NCBI RefSeq assembly: GCF_000473085.1
Contig: NZ_AXBA01000035.1
Span: forward strand, 1 to 55,036
DNA from: Azorhizobium doebereinerae UFLA1-100
GTDB lineage: Bacteria > Pseudomonadota > Alphaproteobacteria > Rhizobiales > Xanthobacteraceae
Length of the DNA stretch: 55,036 bases
Direction: 5' to 3'
This document shows, one piece after another, positions 49,978 to 55,036 of the stretch (position 1 is its first letter; every line of letters starts with the position of its first letter). The notes under the pieces were generated by a model. It was not told where the DNA came from and did no database searches. It saw nothing but the letters and a program-made list of their open reading frames with translations. A program made the position numbers and the translations under genes.

Positions 49978-50085
49978 GGGGAGGACCGGGGGTGGGGGAT
50001 GGGGGGAAGGGGACTTTCGCTCCCTGCGCAGGAGCGGACCCCAGGGTGGGAAACGGTGTTTCGACCCAACAGGGGCATGTCGGGC

Positions 50086-50556
50086 TCAGGAGCGCGTTTG
50101 ATCGGCATCCGTCCTTCGCGCGACACAAAAATCCTGAGGTTCCAAGACCCGGCCGTCCTGAGCCACAAGCTGAAGCGGTGGCAGCGGCTGCCGGTTCAGC
50201 TTGTCCACGACCGCGTAATCCAGTTCCCCGGGCGCGAAGCAGTGCTGCTCGCCCCACTGCCAGAGCGCGACCAGTATGACGCCCAGCTCCTGCCCCTTGG
50301 CCGTCAGGACGTAGAGATGGCTCAGGCCGGATTGGGGATCCGGCTCTACTGTAAAAATGCCTTCGTCGACAAGTTTTCGCAGCCGCGCCGACAGGATGTT
50401 GCGGGCGACGCCGAGGTTCTTCTGGAATTCGGAAAACCGCCGGCGGCCGTTGAAGGCATCCCGGATGATGAGCAGCGACCACCAGTCGCCCACGACCTGC
50501 AACGTGCGCGCGATGCCGCAACCGGCGCCCGCCAGATCCGTCCGCTTGCCCTTCAT
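50086..50556 (-). CDS. HxlR-family transcriptional regulator
   Basis: 156 residues from ATG 50556. The winged-helix HxlR domain (about 15-110) has CGIARTLQVVGDWWSLLIIRDAF and RRFSEFQKNLGVARNILSARLRKL in the usual blocks. The conserved N-terminal Cys (C13), which senses electrophiles or redox stress in YodB/HypR relatives, is present. It is divergent from the gene at 50668 across a 111-bp AT-rich promoter with repeated AAACC sites, so control of that gene and of itself is likely. Confidence 0.92.
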   Translation of the reverse strand: MKGKRTDLAGAGCGIARTLQVVGDWWSLLIIRDAFNGRRRFSEFQKNLGVARNILSARLRKLVDEGIFTVEPDPQSGLSHLYVLTAKGQELGVILVALWQWGEQHCFAPGELDYAVVDKLNRQPLPPLQLVAQDGRVLEPQDFCVARRTDADQTRS

Positions 50557-50590
50557 GCCTCGGCACGCTCCATCAAAATACGAGTTGCAA

Positions 50591-50637
50591 AATTAAACCT
50601 GTTCGGGATATGTGTCTATAGGTTTCAAATTTAAACC
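50591..50637. promoter_or_regulatory. Repeated AAACC/GGTTT sites in HxlR divergent promoter
   Basis: AATTAAACC (50591-50599) recurs as ATTTAAACC (50629-50637) with 38-bp spacing, and the latter forms GGTTT-N7-AAACC (50621-50637). They lie in the AT-rich gap between hxlR and its divergent neighbour and are good candidates for HxlR binding. Confidence 0.5.
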
Positions 50638-50667
50638 ATTATCGGCAGGGGCCGGCATGGCTGGGAG

Positions 50668-51444
50668 ATGAATGAAATGAACGACTTAGTGGATCTGGCC
50701 ATCAAGGCGCATGGCGGCTGGGAGCGTTGGGCGCAGCTCAGTGACCTGCGCGCCCATGCCAATATCGGCGGGGGCATCTGGGCTTTGAAGGGCTGGCCGG
50801 GCGCCTATGCCGACGTCGACGTGACCGTATCGACACGCCGCCCGCACGCCGAATACGCGCCCTTTCCACGGACCGGACAGCGCGGCGTCTGGGAGCCCGA
50901 GCGGACGGCGATCGTCACCGACGACGGCGGCATCGTCGAGGAGCGCACGGCGCCGCGGTCCTTCTTCCACGGTCACGCCATCCCGACGCCCTGGGATCAG
51001 CAGAACCTGATCTATTTCGCCGGCTATGCCATCTGGACCTATCTGACCACGCCGTTCCTGTTCCGGCTTCCGGGCTTCGAGGCCGAGGAAATCGAGCCAT
51101 GGACCGAGAACGGCGAAACCTGGCGCCGGCTCAAGGTGACCTTCCCGGCCACCGTGCCCAGCCATTCGCCGGTGCAGACCTTCTATTTCGACGCCGCCGG
51201 CCTGCTGCGCCGGCACGACTACAGCGTCGACATCATGGGCGGCACGGCCAGCGCCAATTATGCCAGCGACCATAAGACCTTCTCGGGGCTGGTGATCCCG
51301 ACGAAGCGCCGGGTCTATGCCACGCGCCCGGACAACACCCCGATCCTCGATCGTGTCGCCGTCGCGATCGACATCCTGAACGTCGAGGCCATCGACCGCA
51401 CGGGCTCCCGGACACCGGGCGAGGCCGGGGCATGCGCGATCTGA
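50668..51444 (+). CDS. Uncharacterised protein divergent from HxlR
   Basis: 258 residues; ATG 50668 or ATG 50677 may be used. No signal peptide or membrane segment. It opens LVDLAIKAHGGWERWAQLSDLRAHANIGGG, which resembles lipoprotein-localisation (LolA/LolB)-like beta folds seen in cytosolic proteins of unknown role, then LKGWPGAYADVDVTVSTRRP, FPRTGQRGVWEPERTAI and YFAGYAIWTYLTTPFLF. Similar proteins are often found beside oxidoreductase and HxlR genes. It is followed after 168 bp by a frameshifted short-chain dehydrogenase that may belong to the same regulon. Confidence 0.75.
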   Translation: MNEMNDLVDLAIKAHGGWERWAQLSDLRAHANIGGGIWALKGWPGAYADVDVTVSTRRPHAEYAPFPRTGQRGVWEPERTAIVTDDGGIVEERTAPRSFFHGHAIPTPWDQQNLIYFAGYAIWTYLTTPFLFRLPGFEAEEIEPWTENGETWRRLKVTFPATVPSHSPVQTFYFDAAGLLRRHDYSVDIMGGTASANYASDHKTFSGLVIPTKRRVYATRPDNTPILDRVAVAIDILNVEAIDRTGSRTPGEAGACAI

Positions 51445-51612
51445 CCGCCCCGGCCGCAACGCCTTTCCCGGACTGAACCGGCGCCTGGAATGGCCGAGAC
51501 GATACAGCGCTCGCGCAGCCCCCGCGATGCCCAGCCCTCCCGGATCGATGGGTGACGTTCACCCGCCGGCGCGGGCGCAGGGCTTCCTTCACCAACACAT
51601 AGGAATCGAAAC

Positions 51613-52412
51613 ATGTCGAATGACTCAAAGGGCCTCGCGATCATCACGGGCACTTCCACCGGCATCGGCGCGGTCTATGCCGATCGCCTCGCGCGCAGGG
51701 GGTATGATCTCCTGCTGGTCGCCAGGACCGAAGCCCGCCTGTCCGCCGTGGCGGAGCGCATCGCGCGGGACACCGGCCGGTCAGCCGCGATCCTCCGCGT
51801 CGATCTGGCTGATCCGGCGCAACTGGCGGCGTTCGCCGCGCGCGTCGAGACTGACCCCGACCTCACGCTTTTCGTCAACAACGCCGGCATGAGCCTGCAC
51901 GGCACGCTGGCCTCCTCGATGAAGCGGAAGTGCTCCAGCTCCTGGCCCTGAACGTCGTTGCCCCGACGCTTCTCGCCCGGGCGGCGGCCCGCTCCCTGGC
52001 CAGGCGCGGCGGCGGCGGCATCATCAACCTTTCGTCGGTTCTGGCCCTCGCGCCCGAACGGTTCGAGGGCACGTACAGCGCCAGCAAGGCGTTCATCCTG
52101 AACCTGACGCAAGGCCTGGCGGAAAATCTGAAGGACAGCGGCGTTCACGTGCAGGCCGTCCTGCCAGGCGCCACGCGCACGGAGATTTGGGAGCGCTCCG
52201 GCAAGGACATCAATTCCTTCCCGCCCGATTGGGTGATGGAGGTCGATGATCTTGTCGACGCTGCTTTGGCCGGCTTCGACGCCGGCGAAACGGTCACGAT
52301 TCCCCCGCTGGCCGATGAAGCGCAGTGGACGGCCCTGCAGGCCGCGCGCCACGCCATGCTGCCCAACCTGTCCCGCCGCGACGTCGCCGCGCGCTATCGC
52401 ATTCGGGCGTGA
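51613..52412 (+). pseudogene. Short-chain dehydrogenase/reductase split by a -1 frameshift
   Basis: The frame from ATG 51613 encodes the NAD(P)-binding half (TGTSTGIGAVYADRLA, LFVNNAGMSLHGTLASS) then breaks near 51918. The second half continues in another frame (from about 51918, EAEVLQLLALNVVAPTLLARA) with SSVLA, the catalytic YSASKAF and the normal C-terminus to 52412. One base is missing: TCCTCG-GATGAAGC is expected and TCCTCGATGAAGC is present. Restoring one G gives a full SDR of about 266 residues. This is either a real inactivating mutation or a sequencing error; an 18-G tract nearby suggests the local read quality deserves caution. Confidence 0.88.
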
Positions 52413-52705
52413 CGGCGGGGAGCGAACGGCCGGGGGGGGGGGGGGGGGGCATCGATCTGGAAGAGGGGGGCTCTCATTTGGAGGGGAGTGGGGGAGGCAA
52501 AAACGCGCCAGGAGCCGACATTCTTGGAAGCGTTCATGAAGGTCTGCTCCCGACCCCATTGCGGACATTGAGCCAAACCCGGCGGTATCCCAAGCGCGGA
52601 CATACGGTATGATCGAAGACTGCGCGGCGGTGGGTGGTTTGCCGAAGGCCCTTGCAACCCCGGATCACTTACATAACAATACCATTGTTGGCAGGGGGAT
52701 TTTCA
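52413..52705. other. Intergenic junction with long poly-G tract
   Basis: 293 bp separating the high-GC SDR gene from the lower-GC ATPase-HNH island. It contains 18 consecutive Gs at 52432-52449, followed by a further G-rich strand to about 52500. From 52600 the composition drops, and an RBS (AGGGGG at 52693-52698) serves the ATPase gene. It is probably the acquisition boundary. Confidence 0.7.
52432..52449 (+). repeat. 18-nt poly-G homopolymer
   Basis: Eighteen Gs in a row, then ATCGATCTGG and several shorter G runs. Such a length is unstable in replication and prone to base-call artefacts. It is outside any gene start that would be switched by it, about 255 bp before the ATPase start. Confidence 0.9.
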
Positions 52706-54454
52706 GTGCGAATAGCCTATGTGGGCTCCAGCAAGGAATTGCGGCAAAGCTGGCTCAGCAAGAAGGGAGACATCTTACTTCTCCTGCGCGACCGTTGGGA
52801 CGACTTCGGCTACAAGACACGCTTCCCAACTATTTGCAGGGTCAAGGGAGAGGTGGTCGAACTTGGCGCTATTCGAATACTATTCGATAAGCAGCATGCC
52901 TCGCACACCTTCTTGGCTAACCTGCGCGAACAGGACTGGGACGGAAATTTCCCAATTGACGATGCCAACTATATCTCCGTTCCCGAGGAGATCACGTTTT
53001 GCGAGCACCTCCGAGACCTGCTTGACCCTCAAGATGCCGTGGACATTGCGCTGGCGCTAAGGGACGCCAGCCATCTGGTGTTCTCTCTTGAAGATGAGCG
53101 GGCGATAAAGCTCGTCGATACGGAAGGATTTCGGACATCGCTGCAACGAGAGAGATCGTCACAGAACAGCTTTGAGGACGGATGGCGTAAGCTAGGCGGA
53201 GAAGAGCTTGGGGTCAGCGATCTGAAGTTCACATTTCGCGATACATTCGATGATCTGTCCGAGCTGGCGTTGAAGTTTGTTTCTCGCTCGCCCCTGCCGC
53301 ATGATATTAATGTGATCATCGGACCGAACGGTGTCGGGAAGTCATCGGCACTTCGGCAGATGATCAGAGCATGGATACAGCCGAAGGCCGATCATCCAGA
53401 GCTTGAGGGGGCTCTCTTCTATTCAAGGCCAAATCTCAGCCAACTGGTCGCAGTTTCGTACAGCCCGTTCGAACGCTTCCCGGTAGATACCGACGATGAA
53501 CCGAGCTTAGAGAAGGCCTTAAAAGACAAGGATATATATCGGTTCTTCGGCTTCCGGGGGCGCCATTTATCCCAGAACACTCGTCGGCCTACCAGTATCA
53601 GAAACAGTTTAGCAGTGCCAAGGACCAATGCCTGTCTCTCGCTTATCCAGTGCCTTGTCGACGACAGACGTTACGGAACCATCAAAGCTTGGGCCAATAA
53701 ACTGAGGACATTGGAAAATGTTCTCAGTAGTGCGATCGACTTCGACACCGCAGCAGTCAGATTGCAGCAGGATGCCGAGCTGCACGAGATCATTGGCGAC
53801 GATCCCCCCGAGCAAGCGCAAGTCTTCGAGCTAGATGCCACAGGATCAGATGGCGAGGATCTGTTGGAGCGCTACCTCGCGATTTCCCCAGGCAACGACA
53901 TGATCAACATCGCCGCTCTCCAGAAGCATGTCGATCTTGAAGGTGGCGTCGCATTTTTTCGCGATGGCAGCCACGTTGAACTCAGCTCGGGCCAAAGGCT
54001 GTTTTGCTACATAGTGGTGAATGTGCTCGGAGTCATGCGGCGCAATAGTCTCGTAGTGGTCGATGAGCCAGAGCTGTTTCTGCATCCGACGCTAGAGATC
54101 CAATTTGTGTCGATGCTCAAGCAACTTCTTCGCACCTACGGTTCCAAGGCACTGGTGGCCACGCACTCGGTGGTTACGGTTCGCGAAGTTCCCAGTCGGT
54201 GTGTGCATGTGTTCGAGCACACAGACGACGGCCTGCGTATCACCAACCCACCATTCGAGACATTCGGCGGAGACGTGCAACGAATTTCCAGCTACGTGTT
54301 CGGCGATCGTTCGGTTTCAAAGCCGCACGACGCTTGGCTCAAGGATCTCCTGCGGCAGTACGGGACCGCTGACGCGGTGATCGAAGCACTCGATGAGGAT
54401 CTCAATGAGGAGATTATCATCCAGCTCAACGCGATGGAGCGTGGCAAATGGTGA
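52706..54454 (+). CDS. ABC-type AAA ATPase of a putative anti-phage ATPase-HNH pair
   Basis: 582 residues from GTG 52706, supported by AGGGGG 7 nt upstream; the open frame extends further but has no RBS. An N-terminal region of about 200 residues (IAYVGSSKELRQSWLSKKGD... at its start) has no recognised fold. The ATPase follows: Walker A IIGPNGVGKSS (about 204-214), ABC-like signature ELSSGQRLFC (near 423), Walker B VVVDEPELFLHP (near 450), and switch ALVATHSVVTVRE (near 483). This order matches the OLD/PtuA-type SMC-like ATPases of defence systems; no TOPRIM domain is seen. The gene is lower in GC than its neighbours, consistent with transfer. It overlaps the HNH gene by 7 nt. Confidence 0.88.
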   Translation: MRIAYVGSSKELRQSWLSKKGDILLLLRDRWDDFGYKTRFPTICRVKGEVVELGAIRILFDKQHASHTFLANLREQDWDGNFPIDDANYISVPEEITFCEHLRDLLDPQDAVDIALALRDASHLVFSLEDERAIKLVDTEGFRTSLQRERSSQNSFEDGWRKLGGEELGVSDLKFTFRDTFDDLSELALKFVSRSPLPHDINVIIGPNGVGKSSALRQMIRAWIQPKADHPELEGALFYSRPNLSQLVAVSYSPFERFPVDTDDEPSLEKALKDKDIYRFFGFRGRHLSQNTRRPTSIRNSLAVPRTNACLSLIQCLVDDRRYGTIKAWANKLRTLENVLSSAIDFDTAAVRLQQDAELHEIIGDDPPEQAQVFELDATGSDGEDLLERYLAISPGNDMINIAALQKHVDLEGGVAFFRDGSHVELSSGQRLFCYIVVNVLGVMRRNSLVVVDEPELFLHPTLEIQFVSMLKQLLRTYGSKALVATHSVVTVREVPSRCVHVFEHTDDGLRITNPPFETFGGDVQRISSYVFGDRSVSKPHDAWLKDLLRQYGTADAVIEALDEDLNEEIIIQLNAMERGKW

Positions 54455-54766
54455 CGAAATTGCCATTGCCGGAAACTTGCAGCCTTGCTTTGATGGATGT
54501 GGTTGTTGCGGAACGTGCCAATGGACCAAACGCCAAATACTTCAATGGCATCTCCGCAGAATGGCGTAGTCGTATCGAGACCTACATCGTGGAGCACGGA
54601 AATCCAGAATCTGTCCCGAAATGGCCCGCTATTCATGCGCACCGTACGCGGTTTCACACGCTGTACAACACTCCGCAAGAGCACCATTCGCAATATGCCG
54701 TCCTCAAGGGCCTTCGGGATCGCAAGCTTCAGTTTTGTCCATCATGCGGGGAAGAGGGCAGCCCTA
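54448..54766 (+). pseudogene. HNH nuclease (PtuB-like) truncated by IS insertion
   Basis: The frame starts at ATG 54448 within the end of the ATPase gene (7-nt overlap). It encodes about 106 native residues, including FNGISAEWRSRIETYIVEHG, and reaches the zinc motif CPSCGEEGSPR, where IS sequence begins at 54767. After the insertion the frame runs 14 codons into the IS and stops at 54810. In PtuB-like HNH proteins the C-x-x-C is followed by a D-H-x-x-P-K catalytic stretch and a second zinc-binding part; these are absent, so this copy should be inactive. The remainder, if kept, lies beyond the right edge. Confidence 0.85.
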
Positions 54767-54811
54767 GGGTTCAGACCCATAAAATGATTTGCGTTGGCAG
54801 CGTGTTGTGAT

Positions 54812-54838
54812 TCACCAGATCCATGGAGGATCTGGTGA
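54812..54838 (+). promoter_or_regulatory. Stem-loop covering transposase RBS and start codon (right IS)
   Basis: TCACCAGATCC and GGATCTGGTGA form a perfect 11-bp stem around ATGGA. The Shine-Dalgarno GGAGGA spans loop and 3' arm, and the last stem base is the A of the ATG. Compared with the left IS, four consecutive stem pairs are changed on both arms while pairing is kept. Confidence 0.75.
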
Positions 54839-55036
54839 TGAGCGGAGACTGTTTCTGGCTGACGGATGGACAGTTCGCACGGCTTGAGCCGCATCTGCCC
54901 AAGGACACGCGTGGTAAGCCGCGCGTCGATGACCGACGGGTGATCAGCGGCATCGTGCATGTTCTGAAATCGGGCGGCCGATGGATCGACGCGCCGCCTG
55001 AATATGGGCCGCGTAAGACGCTCTACAACCGCTTTG
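54838..55036 (+). CDS. IS5-family transposase, N-terminal part (partial)
   Basis: From ATG 54838 (MSGDCFWLTDGQFARLEPHL), 66 residues to the edge. It shows the same family segments as the left copy: KPRVDDRRVISGIVHVL, then RWIDAPPEYGPRKTLYNRF. An in-frame ATG at 54823 lies in the hairpin loop and would add five residues; 54838 aligns with the left copy's start and is preferred. The two proteins share the conserved blocks but differ elsewhere, so they belong to different IS species of one group. Confidence 0.85.
   Translation, partial: MSGDCFWLTDGQFARLEPHLPKDTRGKPRVDDRRVISGIVHVLKSGGRWIDAPPEYGPRKTLYNRF

Follow-up and report, generated by a model that had tools for sequence, protein, structure and literature searches.

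The window analysed here, meaning the whole stretch of 55,036 nucleotides from Azorhizobium doebereinerae UFLA1-100, ends in a lower-GC segment with two overlapping genes, the second of which runs into an insertion sequence (IS). The features of the segment are as follows.

52432 to 52449, + strand: run of 18 G upstream of the lower-GC segment (run count)
52706 to 54454, + strand: intact long-form PtuA-like ABC ATPase of 582 aa with a GTG start, PADLOC PDC-M01A (ORF call, PADLOC profile, model fold)
52706 to 53209, + strand: N-terminal domain of the ATPase, residues 1-168, common to long-form relatives (profile and structure searches, with no Pfam, PDB or BFVD match)
53321 to 53344, + strand: Walker A, GPNGVGKS, ATPase residues 206-213 (motif)
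53981 to 53995, + strand: ABC signature, LSSGQ, ATPase residues 426-430 (motif)
54053 to 54073, + strand: Walker B, VVVDEPE, ATPase residues 450-456 (motif)
54158 to 54169, + strand: ATHS, ATPase residues 485-488 (motif)
54448 to 54766, + strand: surviving native 5' portion of the HNH nuclease gene (PtuB / PDC-M01B), coding for some 106 of about 280 residues and for the first CxxC only (PADLOC profile, comparison with relatives)
54448 to 54810, + strand: stub ORF of 120 aa from the ATG at 54448, its final residues IS-derived (ORF call)
54765 to 54766, no strand: TA at the insertion point, the probable target, preceding the IS end at 8 of 8 places (comparison of IS ends)
54767 to 55036, + strand: one end of an IS4/IS5-family element truncated where the contig stops, with a DUF4096 transposase ORF starting at 54823 (Pfam, genome matches)

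The ATPase and nuclease reading frames share 7 nt (54448-54454). The longest mechanical ORF for the ATPase begins upstream at 52634 and has 606 aa, but the GTG start at 52706 is supported because the protein that starts there aligns with the PDC-M01A profile over the whole of its 564 positions. The ORF list, the motif positions and this end-to-end alignment agree with the initial annotation on the reading frames, motifs, overlap, positions and start. The compositional break it described is equally evident, with a GC content of 54.1% in the ATPase and 53.3% in the native nuclease stub against 69.3% in positions 1-52700. The G-rich junction it noted corresponds to the 18-G run, which is the sole G or C run of nine or more in the window and lies between a short-chain dehydrogenase gene and the lower-GC pair. 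The ATHS of the ATPase corresponds to the ABC switch-histidine motif. The dehydrogenase gene (51613-52412) is broken over two frames, the first ORF covering positions 3-92 of Pfam adh_short and the following ORF 103-193, which is a frameshift or a sequencing error.

The ATPase is recognized as PtuA-like by PADLOC profiles and by its predicted fold. PDC-M01A scores 745 bits, aligning residues 1-582 with profile positions 1-564 of 564 and covering the N-terminal region, and the PADLOC PtuA profile PDLC00282 matches at E 1e-44. An AlphaFold2 model of the whole protein built from 25 sequences reached a pLDDT of 84.8 and a pTM of 0.81. A fold search with this model in the PDB gave 91 matches at E<=0.001, of which the best 50 were all PtuA, Septu or retron I-A chains (best E 1.9e-10), with low TM-scores to PtuA chains of 0.26-0.36 by query length and 0.33-0.47 by target length. 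The best PDB match by sequence is a retron I-A protein (E 3.2e-7). In NCBIfam, the PtuA model scores 41 bits, far under its 500-bit cut-off, and the best match, TIGR04435, represents another ATPase and is also below its cut-off (50 bits versus 300). The initial proposal of a Septu-like ATPase-HNH pair finds support in both PDC-M01 profiles, in PDLC00282 and in the fold matches.

The nuclease gene is interrupted before its catalytic part. PDC-M01B matches the stub with 123 bits over stub residues 1-111 and profile positions 1-112 of 280. CPSCGEEG, initially described as an HNH-type motif, is only the first cysteine pair, and the rest of the motif found in relatives (DHYLPK...N...C) is missing from the stub. 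DNA homology with L010, a relative with an intact pair, begins at 52910, runs at 73.6% identity and ends at 54767. The sequence after 54766 is common to seven other places in the 104-contig draft genome at 99-100% identity, and TA precedes GGGTTCAGACC at each of these seven IS ends. Each of the seven lies no more than about 22 nt from a contig end, and the window contig ends inside the IS as well. The IS4/IS5-family element has probably expanded recently, and its copies probably also fragment the assembly. The initial annotation suggested that the nuclease might have become costly; with eight places sharing an IS end at 99-100% identity, random insertion of an IS that was active recently suffices to explain the interruption. 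The far IS junction was not found in the assembly. Matches to the upstream flank in other relatives were confined to 8 of 20 and were short or diverged, too little for an empty-site comparison.

A contig that stops inside a multi-copy IS and lacks a far junction could also reflect an assembly artefact, with the strain keeping an intact nuclease gene beyond the repeat. This is quite improbable given that the junction falls inside an ORF at a TA, as at seven other IS ends. Furthermore, the C-terminal 174 aa of the L010 nuclease match nothing in the 104-contig draft genome at E<=10, although the same query recovers its own source, and a query with the N-terminal 106 aa recovers the stub at 63% identity. 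The distal half of the nuclease is therefore lost or unassembled. With the ATPase intact and the nuclease truncated by the IS ahead of its HNH residues, the module should be inactive in A. doebereinerae UFLA1-100, in line with the interrupted nuclease gene and probably silent copy proposed in the initial annotation.

Intact relatives show what the pair looks like when complete. L010, from a Rhizobiales isolate, shares 79% identity with the window ATPase, and L012, from a Rhizobium leguminosarum plasmid, shares 53% and is matched full-length by the PDC-M01 profile in both genes. Further intact pairs are found as distant plasmid copies (L013-L015), and the 7-nt overlap recurs in L010, L012 and L018-L021. 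Among 37 tabulated loci with a long N-terminus, which were collected by ATPase or N-domain searches and not by the nuclease, the HNH gene lies directly downstream in 34, and the remaining three have 0-2 nt of contig left. HNH residues are present in the 34 relatives with a partner. Some of the 34 are near-copies, and clustering them at 80% identity leaves 28 representatives. This count took in the first four of 101 plasmid records and left out L045-L054 (10 of 37 viral loci, with short or cut ATPases) as well as L073, a 100-aa fragment. Outside the count, L050 has no HNH partner and L045 ends at a contig edge. Intact homologues without an HNH partner, which the initial annotation had named as evidence against its reading, do not occur among the 34 long-N loci whose contigs extend far enough beyond the ATPase. 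One relative, L036, has no canonical Walker A by the pattern used.

The long form is patchily distributed. A search with the whole-ATPase alignment A1 recovered 37 viral loci, 27 of them with a long N-terminus, and a scan with the single window sequence recovered only L010 among genome contigs and nothing among viral contigs. The N-domain was found in 6 of 397 other genomes of the phylum at E<=1e-6, comprising five complete ATPases, each followed by an HNH gene, and one 100-aa fragment. At E<=1e-60, the window ATPase had no match in 100 relatives or in 384 class genomes (its own genome aside), absences that are soft because scoring was limited to 12 and 3 candidates per genome, respectively. 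A tblastn search of phages gave 19 matches, 17 of them lambda-type Ea59 or homologues over residues 178-532 and the other two over residues 426-562 or less; as all are confined to residues 178-562, none covers the N-domain. In a tree of ATPase cores, 8 short and 27 long forms are separated with support of 88/95, which is under the star threshold of the tool, and long-branch warnings were raised for L054 and L038.

The genomic neighbourhoods of the relatives are mixed. Neighbour scans covered hand-picked genes. PADLOC matched none of the four neighbours scanned in the window or the four in L010, and among five neighbours of L070-L072 it matched one, an HNH gene in L070; L072 has a HipA-type gene downstream by Pfam. 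The pair on plasmid L012 lies among genes for a TIR protein, a GajB-like helicase and E1-E2-like proteins. In L068 (6158-15596), a long-form pair sits directly beside GajA (808 bits), GajB (793 bits) and a BsuBI/PstI-type restriction pair. The association with defence genes is real in some relatives, with no background rate to set it against, and the window neighbours scanned carry no PADLOC match. The initial annotation would have been refuted by an N-terminal match to a known PtuA in a setting free of defence genes. Such a match exists (PDLC00282, see below), and the scans of the window and of L010 showed no defence neighbours, but these are present in L068 and L012.

Phage genomes provide another setting. 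On the phage contig L018 (5093-17297), the pair lies between a tape-measure gene and minor tail/J-fibre genes, and L019 has a similar ORF layout. The L026 pair is beside an integrase and the L021 pair beside a phage DNA polymerase. With viral contigs contributing 27 of the 37 tabulated long-N loci, the long-form pair could be a selfish or phage-serving module used by temperate phages for superinfection exclusion or inter-phage competition, with host defence only secondary. The viral share is biased, however, because the whole-ATPase alignment was run against viral contigs alone. Pairs are also carried by plasmids and cellular genomes, in one case next to Gabija and a restriction system, and the same mechanism would operate with only the beneficiary differing. 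We consider a primarily phage-serving role possible but the less likely reading. A function in DNA repair or housekeeping is far less credible. The AAA_21/AAA_15 superfamily, to which the window ATPase belongs by Pfam, also holds repair proteins, and no defence neighbours were seen in the window or L010. Yet a repair complex would sit poorly with the patchy occurrence of the N-domain across the phylum, with carriage by plasmids and phages, with a GC content lower than the flanks in both the window and L010 pairs, and with the tolerated loss of the nuclease in the window copy.

The N-terminal domain is shared across the long-form family. The initial annotation had regarded roughly 200 N-terminal residues as unusual and unrecognized, a view that is not supported in that form. 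Residues 1-190 alone match PDC-M01A with 191 bits and PDLC00282 at E 8e-9 (positions 19-166 of 520), and a W[DN]D[FY] motif of the region occurs in 30 of 37 tabulated long-N relatives and is absent from 7. Judged from these sequence matches, the region is part of PDC-M01A and not peculiar to the window ATPase. Residues 1-168 modelled alone gave a pLDDT of 93.8 and a pTM of 0.90. Foldseek with this model found no match in the PDB or BFVD at E<=0.001, and a profile search of PDB sequences reached only E 0.23. Pfam had no match at E<=1 in the N-terminal region of the window protein or three homologues, and a fourth homologue had a sub-threshold match at E 0.23. In the literature searched, which excludes most subscription journals and bioRxiv, no paper was found that mentions 'PtuA' together with 'N-terminal extension'.

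Two further comparisons were set aside. PDC-S34 was considered as a second home of the N-domain on the basis of a single weak match (L014, E 0.01); in the 14 of 289 class genomes that have PDC-S34, matches got no further than positions 260-286 of the 416 in the profile, and it was dropped because they fall short of the relevant part. An hhalign comparison of alignment A5 with L031 was circular because A5 already contains L031.

The N-domain appears to vary more than the ATPase core. Non-synonymous proportions are 0.171 against 0.098 in the comparison with L010 and 0.371 against 0.308 with L012, synonymous sites of the ATPase being saturated for dN/dS. Two such comparisons are suggestive at best. 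With no Pfam, PDB or BFVD match, a new sensor is possible. More specifically, the N-domain might have a new fold and serve as the infection sensor (or as a nuclease lock) of a distinct long-form Septu branch, answering another trigger than classical Septu and working without a retron. We put this forward tentatively, as an idea with less than even prospects.

Taken together, the locus very likely represents an anti-phage module of two genes and of PDC-M01 type that was gained by horizontal transfer, falls in the long-form branch within the Septu (PtuA-PtuB) superfamily and had its nuclease gene inactivated by an IS. By analogy with Septu and retron I-A, the ABC ATPase of intact copies would assemble with the HNH nuclease and restrain it. 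An infection signal, read by the N-domain, the ATP state or both, would then release the HNH domain, which would cut DNA or tRNA and halt phage propagation. Such release of the nuclease upon infection is the most likely mode of action of an intact long-form pair if it behaves like these counterparts. Activity of PtuAB in other systems is described in the portions available of PMC13096335 and PMC11555353. The window copy is ordinary as a locus, and the N-domain common to the long-form family is its one point of moderate interest. The confident N-domain model without structural relatives in the PDB or BFVD, the HNH partner in all 34 loci with room downstream, and the carriage in a phage tail cluster make the long-form branch a clear target for trigger tests of Septu-like ATPases.

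Among known systems, the PtuAB of retron I-A (Ec78/Eco7) provides the best PDB matches of the window ATPase by both sequence and fold. In this type of retron, a reverse transcriptase precedes ptuA (PMC8565338, in the text available). The upstream side of the window pair holds the split dehydrogenase gene, a protein without a Pfam match and an HxlR regulator. Membership in a retron is unsupported because no reverse transcriptase was recognized among four upstream genes scanned and no Rfam match was found in 50000-55036; the region downstream of the pair lies outside the contig.

The window pair resembles Septu (PtuA-PtuB) in its ABC ATPase followed by an HNH nuclease, in its adjacent or overlapping genes and in the ATPase fold. 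PDLC00282 and the fold matches identify a PtuA-type ABC ATPase, while the stricter NCBIfam cut-off for PtuA is not reached. Septu is usually characterized by a short PtuA with Walker A near the N-terminus. The window ATPase differs in its extra N-terminal domain of about 168 aa, which places Walker A at residue 206, although the PADLOC PtuA set itself includes a long profile, PDLC00282. The Walker A lysine of Septu EcB88 PtuA is K43 (PMC13096335, from the part available). Nucleases of the long form are also larger, with 278-311 aa in 33 of 34 tabulated loci versus 207-244 aa in seven short-PtuA loci among L046-L053. The intact HNH residues of a PtuB are missing from the window, where the stub stops before DH...N...C.

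The closest counterpart is PDC-M01, a candidate system listed in PADLOC, and the pair is already known as a type. In the portions available of the literature on 'PDC-M01' (a survey of the Bacillus cereus group and a single-genome description), with most subscription journals and bioRxiv outside the scope, no experimental test was found. The 41 PDC-M01 calls in the B. cereus group duplicated Septu calls, according to the text available of PMC11811056. Both genes of the window match PDC-M01 in the same order and with the N-terminal region included, and they differ from it in the truncated nuclease. The window copy is a member of this candidate defence system by descent, now broken.
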